A DNA stretch of 64,000 nt from Pontibacillus sp. HMF3514 (lineage in GTDB: Bacteria; Bacillota; Bacilli; Bacillales; BH030062), in NCBI RefSeq assembly GCF_009858175.1, contig NZ_CP047393.1, positions 3,534,001 to 3,598,000 on the forward strand. The letters are read 5' to 3'. Below the pieces are notes generated by a model. The model searched no databases and had not been told where the DNA came from. It saw nothing but the letters and a program-made list of their open reading frames with translations. Shown here piece after piece: positions 1,264-4,460 of the stretch; within the stretch, counting starts at the first letter, position 1, and every line of letters starts with the position of its first letter. Position numbers and translations under genes: made by a program.

Positions 1264-1548
1264 TTATCCAGCAGTATTGGCGGGCTCTTCTGCAGGTGAT
1301 TTATCTTTGTTGTATTTGTTCTTCGTTGCTTCCCCGCCTCGTAGATGTCGAATCGCTTTATGATAGTCTAAAATCTCCTTCACTTCATTGGCTAACTCGG
1401 GATTAATGTCCGGCAACCGCTCTGTTAAATCCTTATGAACCGTGCTCTTTGAGACTCCAAATTCCTTCGCAATCACTCGAACGGTTTTTCTCGTCTCCAC
1501 GATATATTTCCCGATCTTGATTGTTCGCTCTTTGATGTAATCGTGCAC
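1264..1548 (-). CDS. spoIIID: Sporulation transcription factor SpoIIID
   Basis: A 94-residue DNA-binding regulator of the mother-cell sigma-E to sigma-K programme. The sequence from HDYIKERTIKIGKYIVE through the helix-turn-helix TVRVIAKEFGVSKSTVHKDL and the basic region RHLRGGEATK is nearly that of B. subtilis SpoIIID. I chose the GTG at 1548, which has GGAGG eight bases upstream and gives the family length. A longer reading from 1596 adds 16 residues with no counterpart. It lies between mbl and an accessory peptide operon. SpoIIID is sigma-E dependent and autoregulated in B. subtilis; the 5' region here is unusually long. Confidence 0.96.
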   Translation of the reverse strand: MHDYIKERTIKIGKYIVETRKTVRVIAKEFGVSKSTVHKDLTERLPDINPELANEVKEILDYHKAIRHLRGGEATKNKYNKDKSPAEEPANTAG

Positions 1549-1851
1549 ACCACTCGCCTCCTGATAGTTGGATGTCAAAGGTGTGAAATGAGACAAGGTT
1601 GAATATAGATATATGTAATGCCTGCCAGTTCTAAGATGGATGTTTTTCTAGGTACCTTGAGGTAATCCTTTCCCCTCTCACCTCAAACCTTCCCTAATTG
1701 AAGGATTCCAAAGGTATGGTTTTGTCCTCCCTTTTGAACCCTCCATTACGGGGTTTGTATCAGATTATGTGAGGGTTGAGCGGTTTATGATTAAAAAGTC
1801 GTGTGGGACAAGGGATACAGGCATTTGTTTTCAGAATTAATACAAAAATAT
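1549..1851. other. Intergenic leader upstream of spoIIID
   Basis: About 300 bases without a supported gene. The minus strand carries TCATAAA (1790..1784), 14 bases, then CATAATCT (1769..1762), which resembles a sigma-E promoter and would give a leader of about 200 bases for spoIIID. Apart from that I see no coding potential and no clear hairpin. Confidence 0.4.
1762..1790 (-). promoter_or_regulatory. Weak candidate sigma-E promoter of spoIIID
   Basis: TCATAAA-N14-CATAATCT on the minus strand matches about five of seven and six of eight positions of the sigma-E consensus. SpoIIID is a known sigma-E target in B. subtilis. The distance to the start codon, about 215 bases, is long, so this is tentative. 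Confidence 0.28.
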
Positions 1852-1972: not shown

Positions 1973-2101
1973 TTATCCCATGCCACCTATGTCAGGATCT
2001 TGTGTAGTGTAAATAGGGTTCATATAATCTGAATTCAAGTTCAGATAAGTACCAATTCCAGCAAATACGATCATAATAAAACATTTGATTATGATATGCA
2101 T
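1973..2101 (-). CDS. 42-residue exported micro-peptide, candidate signalling peptide precursor
   Basis: This short reading frame starts at ATG 2101 (or GTG three bases earlier) behind AAAGGGGGAG, a strong ribosome binding site. The product is MHIIIKCFIMIVFAGIGTYL followed by a polar tail that ends QDPDIGGMG. Residues 3-20 form one hydrophobic segment able to serve as a signal peptide or membrane anchor; the tail has about 22 residues. Size and layout match Phr and AimP pheromone precursors, whose active peptide is the C-terminus. It lies 50 bases after the 81-residue secreted protein gene and before the operon terminator. Function is inferred from context only; I know no homologue. Confidence 0.5.
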   Translation of the reverse strand: MHIIIKCFIMIVFAGIGTYLNLNSDYMNPIYTTQDPDIGGMG

Positions 2102-2150
2102 CACATTGCTCTCCCCCTTTGTTATCTTCCTTAAGCCTGACCTTAATAAA

Positions 2151-2396
2151 TTAAGGTAAAGGTGGTTCTACTGGATCATAATATAATGGTAGTGGTGGTT
2201 CTACTGGGTCAGAATTTGAAACTTTTGGTAATTGTGGTTTTCCTGGATCAGCATTCGAAACTGCAGGCAGTGGTGGTTCTGCTGGATCATGGAACTGAGG
2301 ACCTTCAGCTGCTTGTACACTTATCACATTAAAACCTCCTACGAATAACCCCAGTGCCATTAACAACGTCATTCCCATTAACATTAACCTCTTCAT
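2151..2396 (-). CDS. Secreted precursor with four DPxxPxLP octapeptide repeats, candidate multi-copy pheromone
   Basis: An 81-residue protein with a Sec signal peptide: MKR, a hydrophobic core, then a VQA|AEG cleavage site near residue 29. The mature part is about 50 residues and almost entirely repeats: DPAEPPLP, DPGKPQLP, DPVEPPLP and DPVEPPLP, separated by short spacers (AVSNA, KVSNS, LYY). The last repeat is the exact C-terminus. The ATG overlaps the TGA of the upstream receptor gene in ATGA, with GGGAGG ahead of it, so the two are translationally coupled. In peptide-receptor pairs of the RRNPP group the precursor gene usually follows the receptor gene, as here. A proline-rich surface peptide is the alternative. 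Confidence 0.72.
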   Translation of the reverse strand: MKRLMLMGMTLLMALGLFVGGFNVISVQAAEGPQFHDPAEPPLPAVSNADPGKPQLPKVSNSDPVEPPLPLYYDPVEPPLP

Positions 2397-3418
2397 CTAA
2401 TTCCTCCCATGTTCATATGATTCAATGCTTGTAACGGAAGTCTTGCATAAAAGTAATGACTCTCTTCACTTACAAAACTGTTATAGGATTGGACTAATAA
2501 CTGCTTGTCCATTTTCGCTAAACCAAGATAGTACTTTTGAAAAGGAGTGAGTGATTCAAAAGTGCTTAAAATCTCGATTGCCTTCTCTCGGTCTCCTCTT
2601 GCTACTGCTAAATGCGCCTGTTCTGCTAAACTCTCTGTTTCAACACCTTCAGTCAGACCATGATAGGCTGACACAAACGGTAGATTGTGGTGTTTTACAA
2701 GCTTTTCTATAGCAGGTAATTCAAATTTTTTCGCTAACTTCAACGCCTCATTCAAGTGATACATACTTTGGTCATAGCCATCAAATAAATAGGATAAAGC
2801 CAATATAATGTGTACCCGACTCATACGTGCGGGTGATATTTGTTTATGATTGATAATGGTAAACCCATATTTTCTTGCAATAATGAGCTCATTTTTCCGC
2901 CAATGATATCGAAACAGAATCTCTTTACTTCTCAATTGATAAAACTCCAACAAAAGAGAAGGCTGCATTTGGCTTAAATCCTCTGAGAGTTTCTCATTTA
3001 AATAGGCCCATACACTATAGCGGCGCATCTCATAATTACTGTAAATTTTCAAAATCGTATGTAGACATCTTTGTTCTTCCGTTAAAATAGGTATTTTTTT
3101 TAATTCAACAAGTACATCTGAATGTGAAATCTTATGTTGCAAACTTTTATAGTGAAGCTCGTATAATTTGGCCCACACCCGATCTTCTTCAAAATGAGAT
3201 TGCTTGTTGATATTCAAAAGGGTTTTGAATTCTTGATAGTATCCATTCATTAGCATGAGTTCTAGTCCATGGTGTCTGGCTTCTGGTGTAGTTGATTCCA
3301 TACAGTAGTCTTTCAATAGAGTCATGGCAGTTTTCTCATCATACATCTTCACTAAGATCTTTTTAATAGCATACAGTGACATATTGCTTTTCCTAAAATC
3401 TTTTAAAACTGCACTCAT
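2393..3418 (-). CDS. AimR-family TPR peptide receptor lacking the DNA-binding domain
   Basis: A 341-residue all-helical protein that I align by memory with phage AimR (arbitrium receptor). Shared blocks are LLKDYC near residue 40, KLYELHYK near 110, LAEQAHLAVARGDREKAIEIL near 275, and YYLGLAKMDK followed by RLPLQAL near the end. These are the TPR repeats that bind a short peptide. AimR proteins carry about 50 more N-terminal residues with a helix-turn-helix; here an in-frame TAA stands 21 bases before the ATG, so that domain is absent. It may act by binding a protein, like Rap, rather than DNA. It overlaps the next gene, the putative peptide precursor, by four bases. No phage genes are nearby. 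Confidence 0.78.
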   Translation of the reverse strand: MSAVLKDFRKSNMSLYAIKKILVKMYDEKTAMTLLKDYCMESTTPEARHHGLELMLMNGYYQEFKTLLNINKQSHFEEDRVWAKLYELHYKSLQHKISHSDVLVELKKIPILTEEQRCLHTILKIYSNYEMRRYSVWAYLNEKLSEDLSQMQPSLLLEFYQLRSKEILFRYHWRKNELIIARKYGFTIINHKQISPARMSRVHIILALSYLFDGYDQSMYHLNEALKLAKKFELPAIEKLVKHHNLPFVSAYHGLTEGVETESLAEQAHLAVARGDREKAIEILSTFESLTPFQKYYLGLAKMDKQLLVQSYNSFVSEESHYFYARLPLQALNHMNMGGIR

Positions 3419-3463: not shown

Positions 3464-3599
3464 TCAGACATCCTTTTATCTTTGTTAGGATAAAATTACC
3501 AGAGTCTTATGAAAGAAAAAATACTTTAGACAAAAGAAGTGTGTAGTCGACAAAACCTTTCAAAACTTTCTGCAGTAATCGACGTGATCGGCTTTAAGC

Positions 3600-3632
3600 A
3601 AAAAAAATCCTACCTTAAGCAGGTAGGATTTT
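3600..3632 (-). terminator. Terminator of spoIIQ
   Basis: AAAATCCTACC (3604-3614) pairs with GGTAGGATTTT (3622-3632) around a 7-base loop. On the minus strand the stem is followed by a T-run, 15 bases after the spoIIQ stop. It separates spoIIQ from the peptide-receptor operon. Confidence 0.88.
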
Positions 3633-3647: not shown

Positions 3648-4460
3648 TTACGTATTTGTCATTGAAATGGATGATTCGCTATCTTCGTTTGGTTCTTTTT
3701 TGTCTTCAGGTTGCTTATCTTCTTCAGGTTGATCTTCCTGGTCAGACTGCGCATCTTCTTCTACTGAGATGTTGCTTAGCGGTTGATTGAAGTACGTTTC
3801 AGGATTCACTTTTTCTCCATCTTTTACCACTTCAAAATGTACGTGTACACCGCTTGCTTGACCCATTAAACTTTGTCCAGCTGTTCCAATTGCATCGTCC
3901 TGATTAACTTCAGCACCTGTTTCAACAAGAACATCACCTAAGCTCATATAGCGAGTTGTTAGACCATCTTGGTGTGTGATTTCAACCACATTACCCAGTA
4001 GTGGATCTTCTTTGACTTCCGTTACTGTGCCTGTAGCAGATGCTAGAACATCGAAAGATTCGCCATCTTCACGTGCGATGTCTACACCTTCGCTTTGATA
4101 GTAATGGTTGTCGTAAAGAATAAGGGCTTTTTCACGGTCTTCTGCACTTGCGCTATAATCGAAAAACTTAGTCTTGATAACAGCTTGGTCACGGTTATGA
4201 AGTGGCATGTTTAAGTTTTCATTCAGCTCCATAACAGGTGTTGCAGGCTGGTTATCATAGTCAATGCCGTCTGTTTCATTTTGCAGGTTGTCTTGATCAT
4301 CAGCAAGATCTTCAACATTGGTTAAAGAACTCTGATACCAAAGTACTCCTGTCAAAATCAAAGCTGCTGCTACTAAATAAACACTAGGGAAAAACCATTT
4401 CTTACGCAAAATACGTTTCCAATTGTTTTTTGAAACGTTTTTGTTTTCTTCCTCTCTCAT
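3648..4460 (-). CDS. spoIIQ: SpoIIQ, forespore membrane protein with degenerate M23 (LytM) domain
   Basis: A 270-residue bitopic membrane protein. It has a short basic cytoplasmic N-terminus, a transmembrane helix at about 25-45, a LytM/M23 domain at about 110-225, and an acidic low-complexity tail. In active M23 enzymes a zinc-binding His precedes GxDxA; here the stretch is YQSEGVDIA, with Ser123 at the His position, while Asp127 and the HVHF motif (His206, His208) remain. B. subtilis SpoIIQ is likewise degenerate at this site. SpoIIQ pairs with SpoIIIAH across the septum during engulfment. A sigma-F-type promoter sits directly upstream and a terminator directly downstream. Confidence 0.93.
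   Translation of the reverse strand: MREEENKNVSKNNWKRILRKKWFFPSVYLVAAALILTGVLWYQSSLTNVEDLADDQDNLQNETDGIDYDNQPATPVMELNENLNMPLHNRDQAVIKTKFFDYSASAEDREKALILYDNHYYQSEGVDIAREDGESFDVLASATGTVTEVKEDPLLGNVVEITHQDGLTTRYMSLGDVLVETGAEVNQDDAIGTAGQSLMGQASGVHVHFEVVKDGEKVNPETYFNQPLSNISVEEDAQSDQEDQPEEDKQPEDKKEPNEDSESSISMTNT

Follow-up and report, generated by a model that had tools for sequence, protein, structure and literature searches.

In Bacillus, Rap-Phr systems act on Spo0F or ComA. Rap has been called the only RRNPPA member without a helix-turn-helix (HTH) domain (PMC9765709), and one further small HTH-less subfamily was added later (PMC12700828). AimR of the SPbeta arbitrium system carries its HTH domain in residues 1-59, with DNA contacts at N30, N32 and Y35 (PMC6458997). 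Almost 90% of AimR proteins outside prophages are reported to be without a propeptide, repeated AimR propeptides and double Rap propeptides have already been described (PMC9765709), and DPG-type peptides are reported to be widespread in AimR relatives (PMC12700828). We analyzed a locus of Pontibacillus sp. HMF3514 that combines an AimR-family receptor with two small secreted gene products inside a set of sporulation genes. The window is the whole stretch of DNA analyzed, 64,000 nucleotides long, and corresponds to positions 3534001-3598000 of a genome that is a single contig of 3.98 Mb.

Layout of the locus and its receptor

At the start of the window, minus-strand genes occur in the order spoIID, spoIIQ, receptor, 81-aa precursor, 43-aa precursor, spoIIID and mreB/mbl. 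A sequence-only reading had proposed three minus-strand open reading frames (ORFs) between spoIIQ and spoIIID, and all three were recovered there, including the ATGA in which the start of the 81-aa precursor gene overlaps the receptor's stop codon.

3648..4460, minus strand: spoIIQ, flank (NF053738, 328.7 bits)
3604..3632, minus strand: terminator-like hairpin behind spoIIQ (hairpin scan)
2393..3418, minus strand: AimR-family receptor without HTH, 341 aa, P0001 (Pfam PF22871, NCBIfam NF038310, profile alignment)
2151..2396, minus strand: predicted secreted multi-repeat pheromone precursor, 81 aa (ATGA overlap with the receptor; P. marinus orthologue)
1973..2104, minus strand: secreted precursor with a family-typical C-terminus, 43 aa (P. 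marinus orthologue ending DPDTGGMG)
1264..1596, minus strand: spoIIID, flank (TIGR02844, 149.4 bits)

The micro-peptide gene encodes 43 aa from a GTG start and 42 from the next ATG. The hairpin scan returned 2 sites vs. 2.6 expected from shuffles and by itself proves nothing. From the overlap, gene order and shared strand, we infer that the receptor and both precursors would be carried on one transcript. Relative to Pontibacillus marinus BH030004, the closest relative (85% receptor identity), dN/dS was 0.06 for the receptor, 0.36 for the 81-aa gene and 0.44 for the 43-aa gene, values by which all three ORFs look like kept genes.

The proposed kinship with AimR was borne out by profile searches. 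P0001 matched Pfam PF22871 (AimR) with 234.7 bits (E 1.8e-69, cut-off 26.7) and NCBIfam NF038310 (lysogeny_AimR) with 183.3 bits (cut-off 70), both far above chance; it also matched PHROG 1728, and it found solved AimR chains at E 6e-6 from sequence alone. A Pfam scan at E up to 1 gave AimR alone and no RapH_N in P0001. In a profile-profile alignment, built from 101 P0001 relatives and ten HTH-bearing AimR proteins, residues 4-341 of P0001 were paired with residues 34-380 of SPbeta AimR. The residues ahead of a shared DYC column number 62-73 in the HTH-bearing proteins and a median of 45 (range 36-84) in the 101 relatives, with the farthest possible start always chosen. A profile of the HTH part gave at least 56 bits for the HTH-type proteins, which are its training set, and at best 13.5 bits for an HTH-less protein. 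P0001 was absent from the 30 best matches of this profile (E up to 0.42), and the DNA upstream of P0001 held no match to it at E up to 1. Additionally, the open frame around the receptor spans only 347 codons, so no upstream start adds a domain. On these comparisons, the window receptor lacks the N-terminal HTH of AimR, and the mode of action of phage AimR does not carry over to a receptor without a DNA-binding domain. The SPbeta groove residues F276, E300 and F362 are retained in 90, 90, and 84 of 93 relatives, respectively. The residues that anchor the carboxyl group and main chain of the SPbeta peptide (N202, R228, T236 and N239) are not conserved, which counts against the reading that we prefer below.

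Precursors, peptides and receptor-peptide covariation

The translated precursors contain the following predicted peptides, of which the first four derive from the 81-aa ORF and the last from the 43-aa gene.

2265..2288, minus strand: octapeptide copy 1, DPAEPPLP
2226..2249, minus strand: octapeptide copy 2, DPGKPQLP
2187..2210, minus strand: octapeptide copy 3, DPVEPPLP
2154..2177, minus strand: octapeptide copy 4, C-terminal, DPVEPPLP
1976..1999, minus strand: predicted mature peptide DPDIGGMG (fits the DPxxGxx[DG] pattern of relatives)

An RGA-ended hexapeptide occurs in neither window precursor. Repeats within one precursor mostly agree, as in DPVMGDLD five times (L146), DPNLGDID three times (L163), and DPVEPPIK four times in the P. 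marinus orthologue of the 81-aa precursor; copies thus agree inside a precursor and differ from species to species, as the sequence-only reading had anticipated.

Small ORFs were recognized as precursors when they had a ribosome site, a hydrophobic start and DP or NP in their last 14 residues, and began within 500 bases downstream of the receptor. This filter was passed by 31 of 49 receptors at the spoIIQ-spoIIID position, hereafter the spo locus (32 counted, spurious L116 removed), as compared with 22 of 59 other receptors, 1 of 9 HTH-type rows (which include one protein twice, as L073 and L138) and 6 of 473 control genes. In a later set of 32 spo-locus receptors, 16 passed (17 counted, spurious L229 removed), giving a recognized precursor in 47 of 81 spo-locus receptors overall. 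The expectation that homologues would have an adjacent small secreted gene therefore held in part: such genes are far more frequent beside spo-locus receptors than beside controls, but 34 of the 81 relatives are without a recognized one. The window passes the filter through its 43-aa gene, and the 81-aa gene fails it. Within the window's family, a precursor was recognized in two of the eight receptor-bearing genomes (the window's and P. marinus) and not in the other six; G001 and G007 have a longer, membrane-protein-like ORF in its place. Chance-level matches aside, a search of nine genomes, of which six belong to the genus, recovered the 81-aa and 43-aa genes only in P. marinus and in the window's own genome. 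In 29 systems of a second family (f14), the peptide mostly reads D-P-[DGE]-[LY]-G-[DE]-[ILM]-[DG], with G5 constant in 29/29 (D and P were selection criteria), and peptide identity is 0.59 vs. 0.10 for the eight preceding residues and 0.44 for the first eight residues. Judged by this pattern, the 43-aa gene encodes a peptide typical of the family, and the repeats of the 81-aa gene diverge from it.

The receptor column that best separates systems with G-ended peptides from those with D-ended ones corresponds to E166 of P0001. It holds E in 26 of 29 G-ended systems and Q (23) or H (4) in 27 of 27 D-ended ones, a class that also takes in peptides with a short tail after the D (L113, L157, L164 and L209). 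These first lists were hand-made and omitted the D-ended L112, L199 and L212 and the G-ended L068; with the omitted systems added, E is found in 27/30 G-ended and Q or H in 28/30 D-ended systems, the exceptions being L199 and L212 (D-ended with E), L167 and L230 (G-ended with Q), and L223 (with T). E166 aligns with SPbeta V198, and in SPbeta AimR the last residue of AimP is packed between V198 and one other residue (PMC6458997). Tyr126, the equivalent of the listed contact Y159 of SPbeta, also shifts between G-ended and D-ended systems. Because the D-ended receptors mostly form one clade, this tracking of the peptide's last residue is confounded by clade and is suggestive rather than proof. 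At the spo locus, E, Q or H occupies position 166 in 45 of 47 receptors with a precursor vs. 12 of 34 without, counts that ignore kinship; of 306 positions compared in this way, only position 139 separates the two groups better. By the groove rule (E166, Y126) the window receptor is of the G type, which points to DPDIGGMG as its predicted main ligand.

Chromosomal distribution and a proposed link to sporulation

A receptor match was found in 22 of 61 genomes comprising the window's own and its relatives. Of 8 genomes of the genus, 7 carry the receptor between spoIIQ and spoIIID, as does G008, the one further genome of the family that was covered, which makes 8 of 9 with the receptor beside spoIIID. 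Pontibacillus G003 has no receptor, which counts against the preferred reading. In f14, AimR was matched in 96 of 120 sampled genomes and 40 of 46 genera, 95 of these genomes scoring above cut-off, and in 90 of the 95 it lies no more than 2.3 kb from spoIIID, at a median distance of 636 bases. At the best-scoring 28 loci of this family, SpoIIQ or SpoIIID was beside the receptor in every case and both were in 25, while 40 further matches comprised 32 at the spo locus (31 with both flanks), six at a second locus and two elsewhere. All eight f14 genomes without SpoIIID above cut-off were also without AimR, vs. 17 of the 112 with SpoIIID (Fisher p 1.3e-6, uncorrected); the eight represent three genera, two of them are 80% complete or 9% contaminated, and for four f14 genomes the absence of AimR was deduced by comparing the AimR and SpoIIID lists. 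The 17 f14 genomes that have spoIIID and no AimR above cut-off likewise count against the preferred reading.

The sequence-only reading had also remarked on the absence of phage genes, and this holds: the flanks are core genes (SpoIID and SpoIIQ upstream; SpoIIID and then an MreB/Mbl protein downstream), and neither P0001 nor a relative from family f7 had a match among 50,697 phage records. The matches of an f14 relative in these records were five SPbeta-type phages at ~22% identity, and P0001 had two weak plasmid matches (26-27% identity). Viral-contig scans with P0001 and with an HTH-type relative both yielded nothing useful. In a quick tree of 115 proteins (without L070, L071, L119 and L138), the HTH-less set was separated from the HTH-bearing set with a support of 99, and spo-locus receptors formed one clade per family, of 8 and 41 rows, with a support of 97 each and a long-branch warning from the program at these clades. 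A joint spo-locus clade gave a likelihood slightly above that of the free tree and was not rejected (AU p 0.619, additionally without L120-L122 and L139). Taken with the synteny in two families, this indicates that the receptor is an old chromosomal gene; of the earlier suggestion of a domesticated or chromosomal module, the chromosomal part thus stands and a recent domestication does not.

Several AimR relatives lie outside this picture. L120, L121, L122 and L139 (families f6 and f26) fall on the HTH-bearing branch of the tree and yet are without the N-terminus, which by their placement is a separate HTH loss; L121 and L122 have precursors with ADPNGSPRIQS downstream. In family f7 (L059, L060 and L123-L137), each genome has one or two HTH-less AimR genes located elsewhere on the chromosome, and several of these receptors have DPGDPGMG-like precursors, often repeated. 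At least four HTH-type AimR genes follow one another in L141 (G013:C7:90000-105000). The AimR relative L070:5623-6762 (family f24) has an N-terminus of in-between length, and its 41-aa neighbor is a small secreted ORF with ADPGPIAPGG away from its end.

The window's own genome encodes six HTH-less AimR-type receptors and three recognized precursor genes. A paralogue at 552 kb has its own precursor, ending YDPTVGGVG, and a tandem array of four receptors at 3632-3637 kb (L007:6262-10809) has no recognized precursors. A second old locus, speE-speB-[1 to 4 HTH-less AimR]-DUF1934-argS, occurs in both families and includes the L007 array, L105, L109, L205, L215, L225-L227 and L235. Its receptors have no convincing precursors (the sole match, L225, looks spurious), show the G-type groove signature in most rows, and may be candidate listeners to shared peptides. 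A link from this locus to spo0F was considered and set aside, as no short response-regulator gene was recognized in 19.5 kb beyond argS; this region (in L007) holds lipid-metabolism-like genes and, by eye, an rpoE-like gene ~16 kb off.

Spo0A-box-like sites upstream of the receptor were first spotted by eye in the window.

3546..3552, minus strand: imperfect Spo0A-box-like site TGTCGAC (upstream block conserved with P. marinus)
3526..3532, minus strand: second imperfect Spo0A-box-like site TGTCTAA, 20 bases on (conserved with P. marinus)

We then counted TGTCGAA, the core of the Spo0A-box consensus, in up to 250 bases upstream of each gene. It was present for 36 of 49 spo-locus receptors (36 of 48 minus the window) vs. 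1.5 expected from shuffles, and elsewhere for 4 of 68 other receptors and 36 of 461 control ORFs, a set that contains some spurious ones. A later set gave 29/32 at the spo locus, 2/6 at the second locus and 2/2 elsewhere, bringing the spo-locus relatives with the core to 65 of 80 in sets that share genera and whose lineages are not independent. Among neighboring genes, it preceded 8/25 spoIIQ, 6/19 mbl, 0/20 spoIID and 0/11 murA. Two observations count against the preferred reading: the box is not confined to the spo-locus receptors, as shown by its copies at the second locus and elsewhere and by spoIIQ and mbl, which are above background, and the window itself has no exact TGTCGAA copy, only the imperfect boxes listed. 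In G001 and G007, a perfect TGTCGAA lies ~110 bases upstream, with TGTTGAA at the same spacing as the window's second site. The alignment of upstream sites gives aaTTTGTCGAACGATT, followed ~37 bases further on by a −10-like TATTATA whose conservation is loose, and the conserved upstream word TGTCGAACGATT is longer than the Spo0A core. The word TGTCGAACGAWT has 0 to 3 copies per genome in eight genomes (reversed control, 0 to 6), one copy in four of the eight being the receptor's own; given this rarity, it is no regulon-wide word. Consensus sequences for SigH, SigE and SigF showed no excess upstream of receptors. The window's genome has Spo0A_C and SPOB_a domains and no RapH_N above cut-off (best 24.5 bits, cut-off 27); a RapH_N match above cut-off does occur in two other genomes of the genus, G004 and G006.

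Proposed role and comparison with known systems

We consider it reasonably probable that the locus encodes a Rap-like, Spo0A-linked RRNPPA pheromone module that came from AimR stock and feeds back on sporulation. By what is known of the family, the precursors would be exported, cut to octapeptides (DPDIGGMG and the DPVEPPLP type) and re-imported, and an octapeptide would then bind in the TPR groove of the receptor. Since the DNA-binding domain is lost, a protein-protein output is most likely; the receptor would bind a protein partner, as Rap does, and the peptide would switch that binding. The partner probably belongs to the sporulation pathway, in view of the spoIIQ-spoIIID position, the Spo0A-box core in relatives and the absence of the receptor from the few relatives in which spoIIID is missing. 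Spo0A would thus set the levels of receptor and pheromone, and sporulation would in turn be subject to feedback from the receptor, so that the cassette is probably wired into the spore-formation decision. A broader proposal, to which we give somewhat less than an even chance, is that AimR stock gave rise to a second HTH-less lineage, independent of Rap, that serves at least two families of Bacillus relatives, that of Pontibacillus and the larger f14, as a resident, Spo0A-wired quorum sensor for sporulation and fills the place that Rap-Phr has in Bacillus, the window adding a repeat-type pheromone to the same receptor.

Other explanations were weighed. It is conceivable, if unlikely, that the receptor still acts on transcription through RNA polymerase, Spo0A or another DNA-binding partner instead of on DNA. 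Its phage relatives do regulate transcription, and the extent of TGTCGAACGATT beyond the Spo0A core leaves room for another regulator, but the receptor has no DNA-binding domain and no particular partner is indicated. A little less likely again is a receptor that only listens, reading peptides of phages or of paralogous systems, as has been proposed for chromosomal AimR. That would fit the scarcity of propeptides outside prophages (PMC9765709), the excess of receptors over precursor genes in the window's genome and the G-type signature that precursor-less speB-argS receptors mostly keep (one spurious case aside); it fits poorly with the window receptor's own pair of precursors, which are under purifying selection, and with the precursors found for 47 of the 81 spo-locus receptors. 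The same explanation may well hold for solo paralogues. We regard as very improbable a domesticated or decaying phage arbitrium relic that persisted by chance next to spoIIID. In its favor are the alignment of P0001 with AimR of phages, the setting in which AimR is best known, and the lack of a recognized precursor in some relatives, but a relic would hardly keep the same position in two bacterial families or a receptor dN/dS of 0.06; P0001 and its f7 relative are also without phage matches, those of the f14 relative are weak and SPbeta-type only, and the HTH-less set is split from HTH-bearing AimR in the quick tree. Finally, the least credible explanation is that this receptor does not read the small secreted proteins as signals (they could be antimicrobial peptides, for instance) and is an unrelated neighbor: the DPVEPPLP repeats are indeed unlike the family's other peptides, but one position of the receptor varies with the last residue of the peptide and in many cases decays where the precursor is gone, and precursors lie downstream of receptors in several families.

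The window receptor belongs to a large chromosomal AimR lineage without a DNA-binding domain, many of whose members have their own peptides, fixed in a sporulation locus. In the published view of chromosomal AimR, bacteria or mobile elements listen in on phages. Two questions become testable: whether the arbitrium system of phages was acquired from a dormancy sensor of bacteria, and by what means crowding is sensed ahead of sporulation in sporeformers that have few Rap proteins or none.

The window contains two elements of RRNPPA systems, a TPR receptor of a known subfamily and an adjacent small secreted propeptide whose mature peptide is C-terminal or repeated. The clusters reported with RRNPP_detector (Bernard 2023, PMC10075063) similarly join a receptor with an adjacent Sec propeptide; the main text of that paper, figures and supplementary tables aside, contains neither "spoIIID" nor any of six salt-adapted genus names. 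"Subfamily 21" of Alkalihalobacilli, compared by description only, is also chromosomal and falls among AimR in a sequence tree (PMC12700828). In the parts of the open-access literature covered, we found no AimR lineage described as HTH-less and located at spoIIID; a supplementary table may list one. With SPbeta AimR-AimP, the window shares the receptor family over the TPR part, a precursor directly downstream, and the groove residues F276, E300 and F362, and it differs in an HTH-less, non-phage receptor, in peptides of the form DPxxGxx[DG] that are not RGA-ended, and in the anchor residues. In arbitrium, the N-terminal HTH binds the operator of aimX, a gene located downstream; in the window, it is spoIIID that comes after the precursors. 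The likeness to Rap-Phr of Bacillus lies in an HTH-less TPR receptor, a secreted precursor downstream and a link to sporulation, and repeated or double precursors are known for Rap as well (PMC9765709). Unlike Rap, the window receptor is not a Rap protein by sequence and has no RapH_N, and its loss of the HTH was a separate one.
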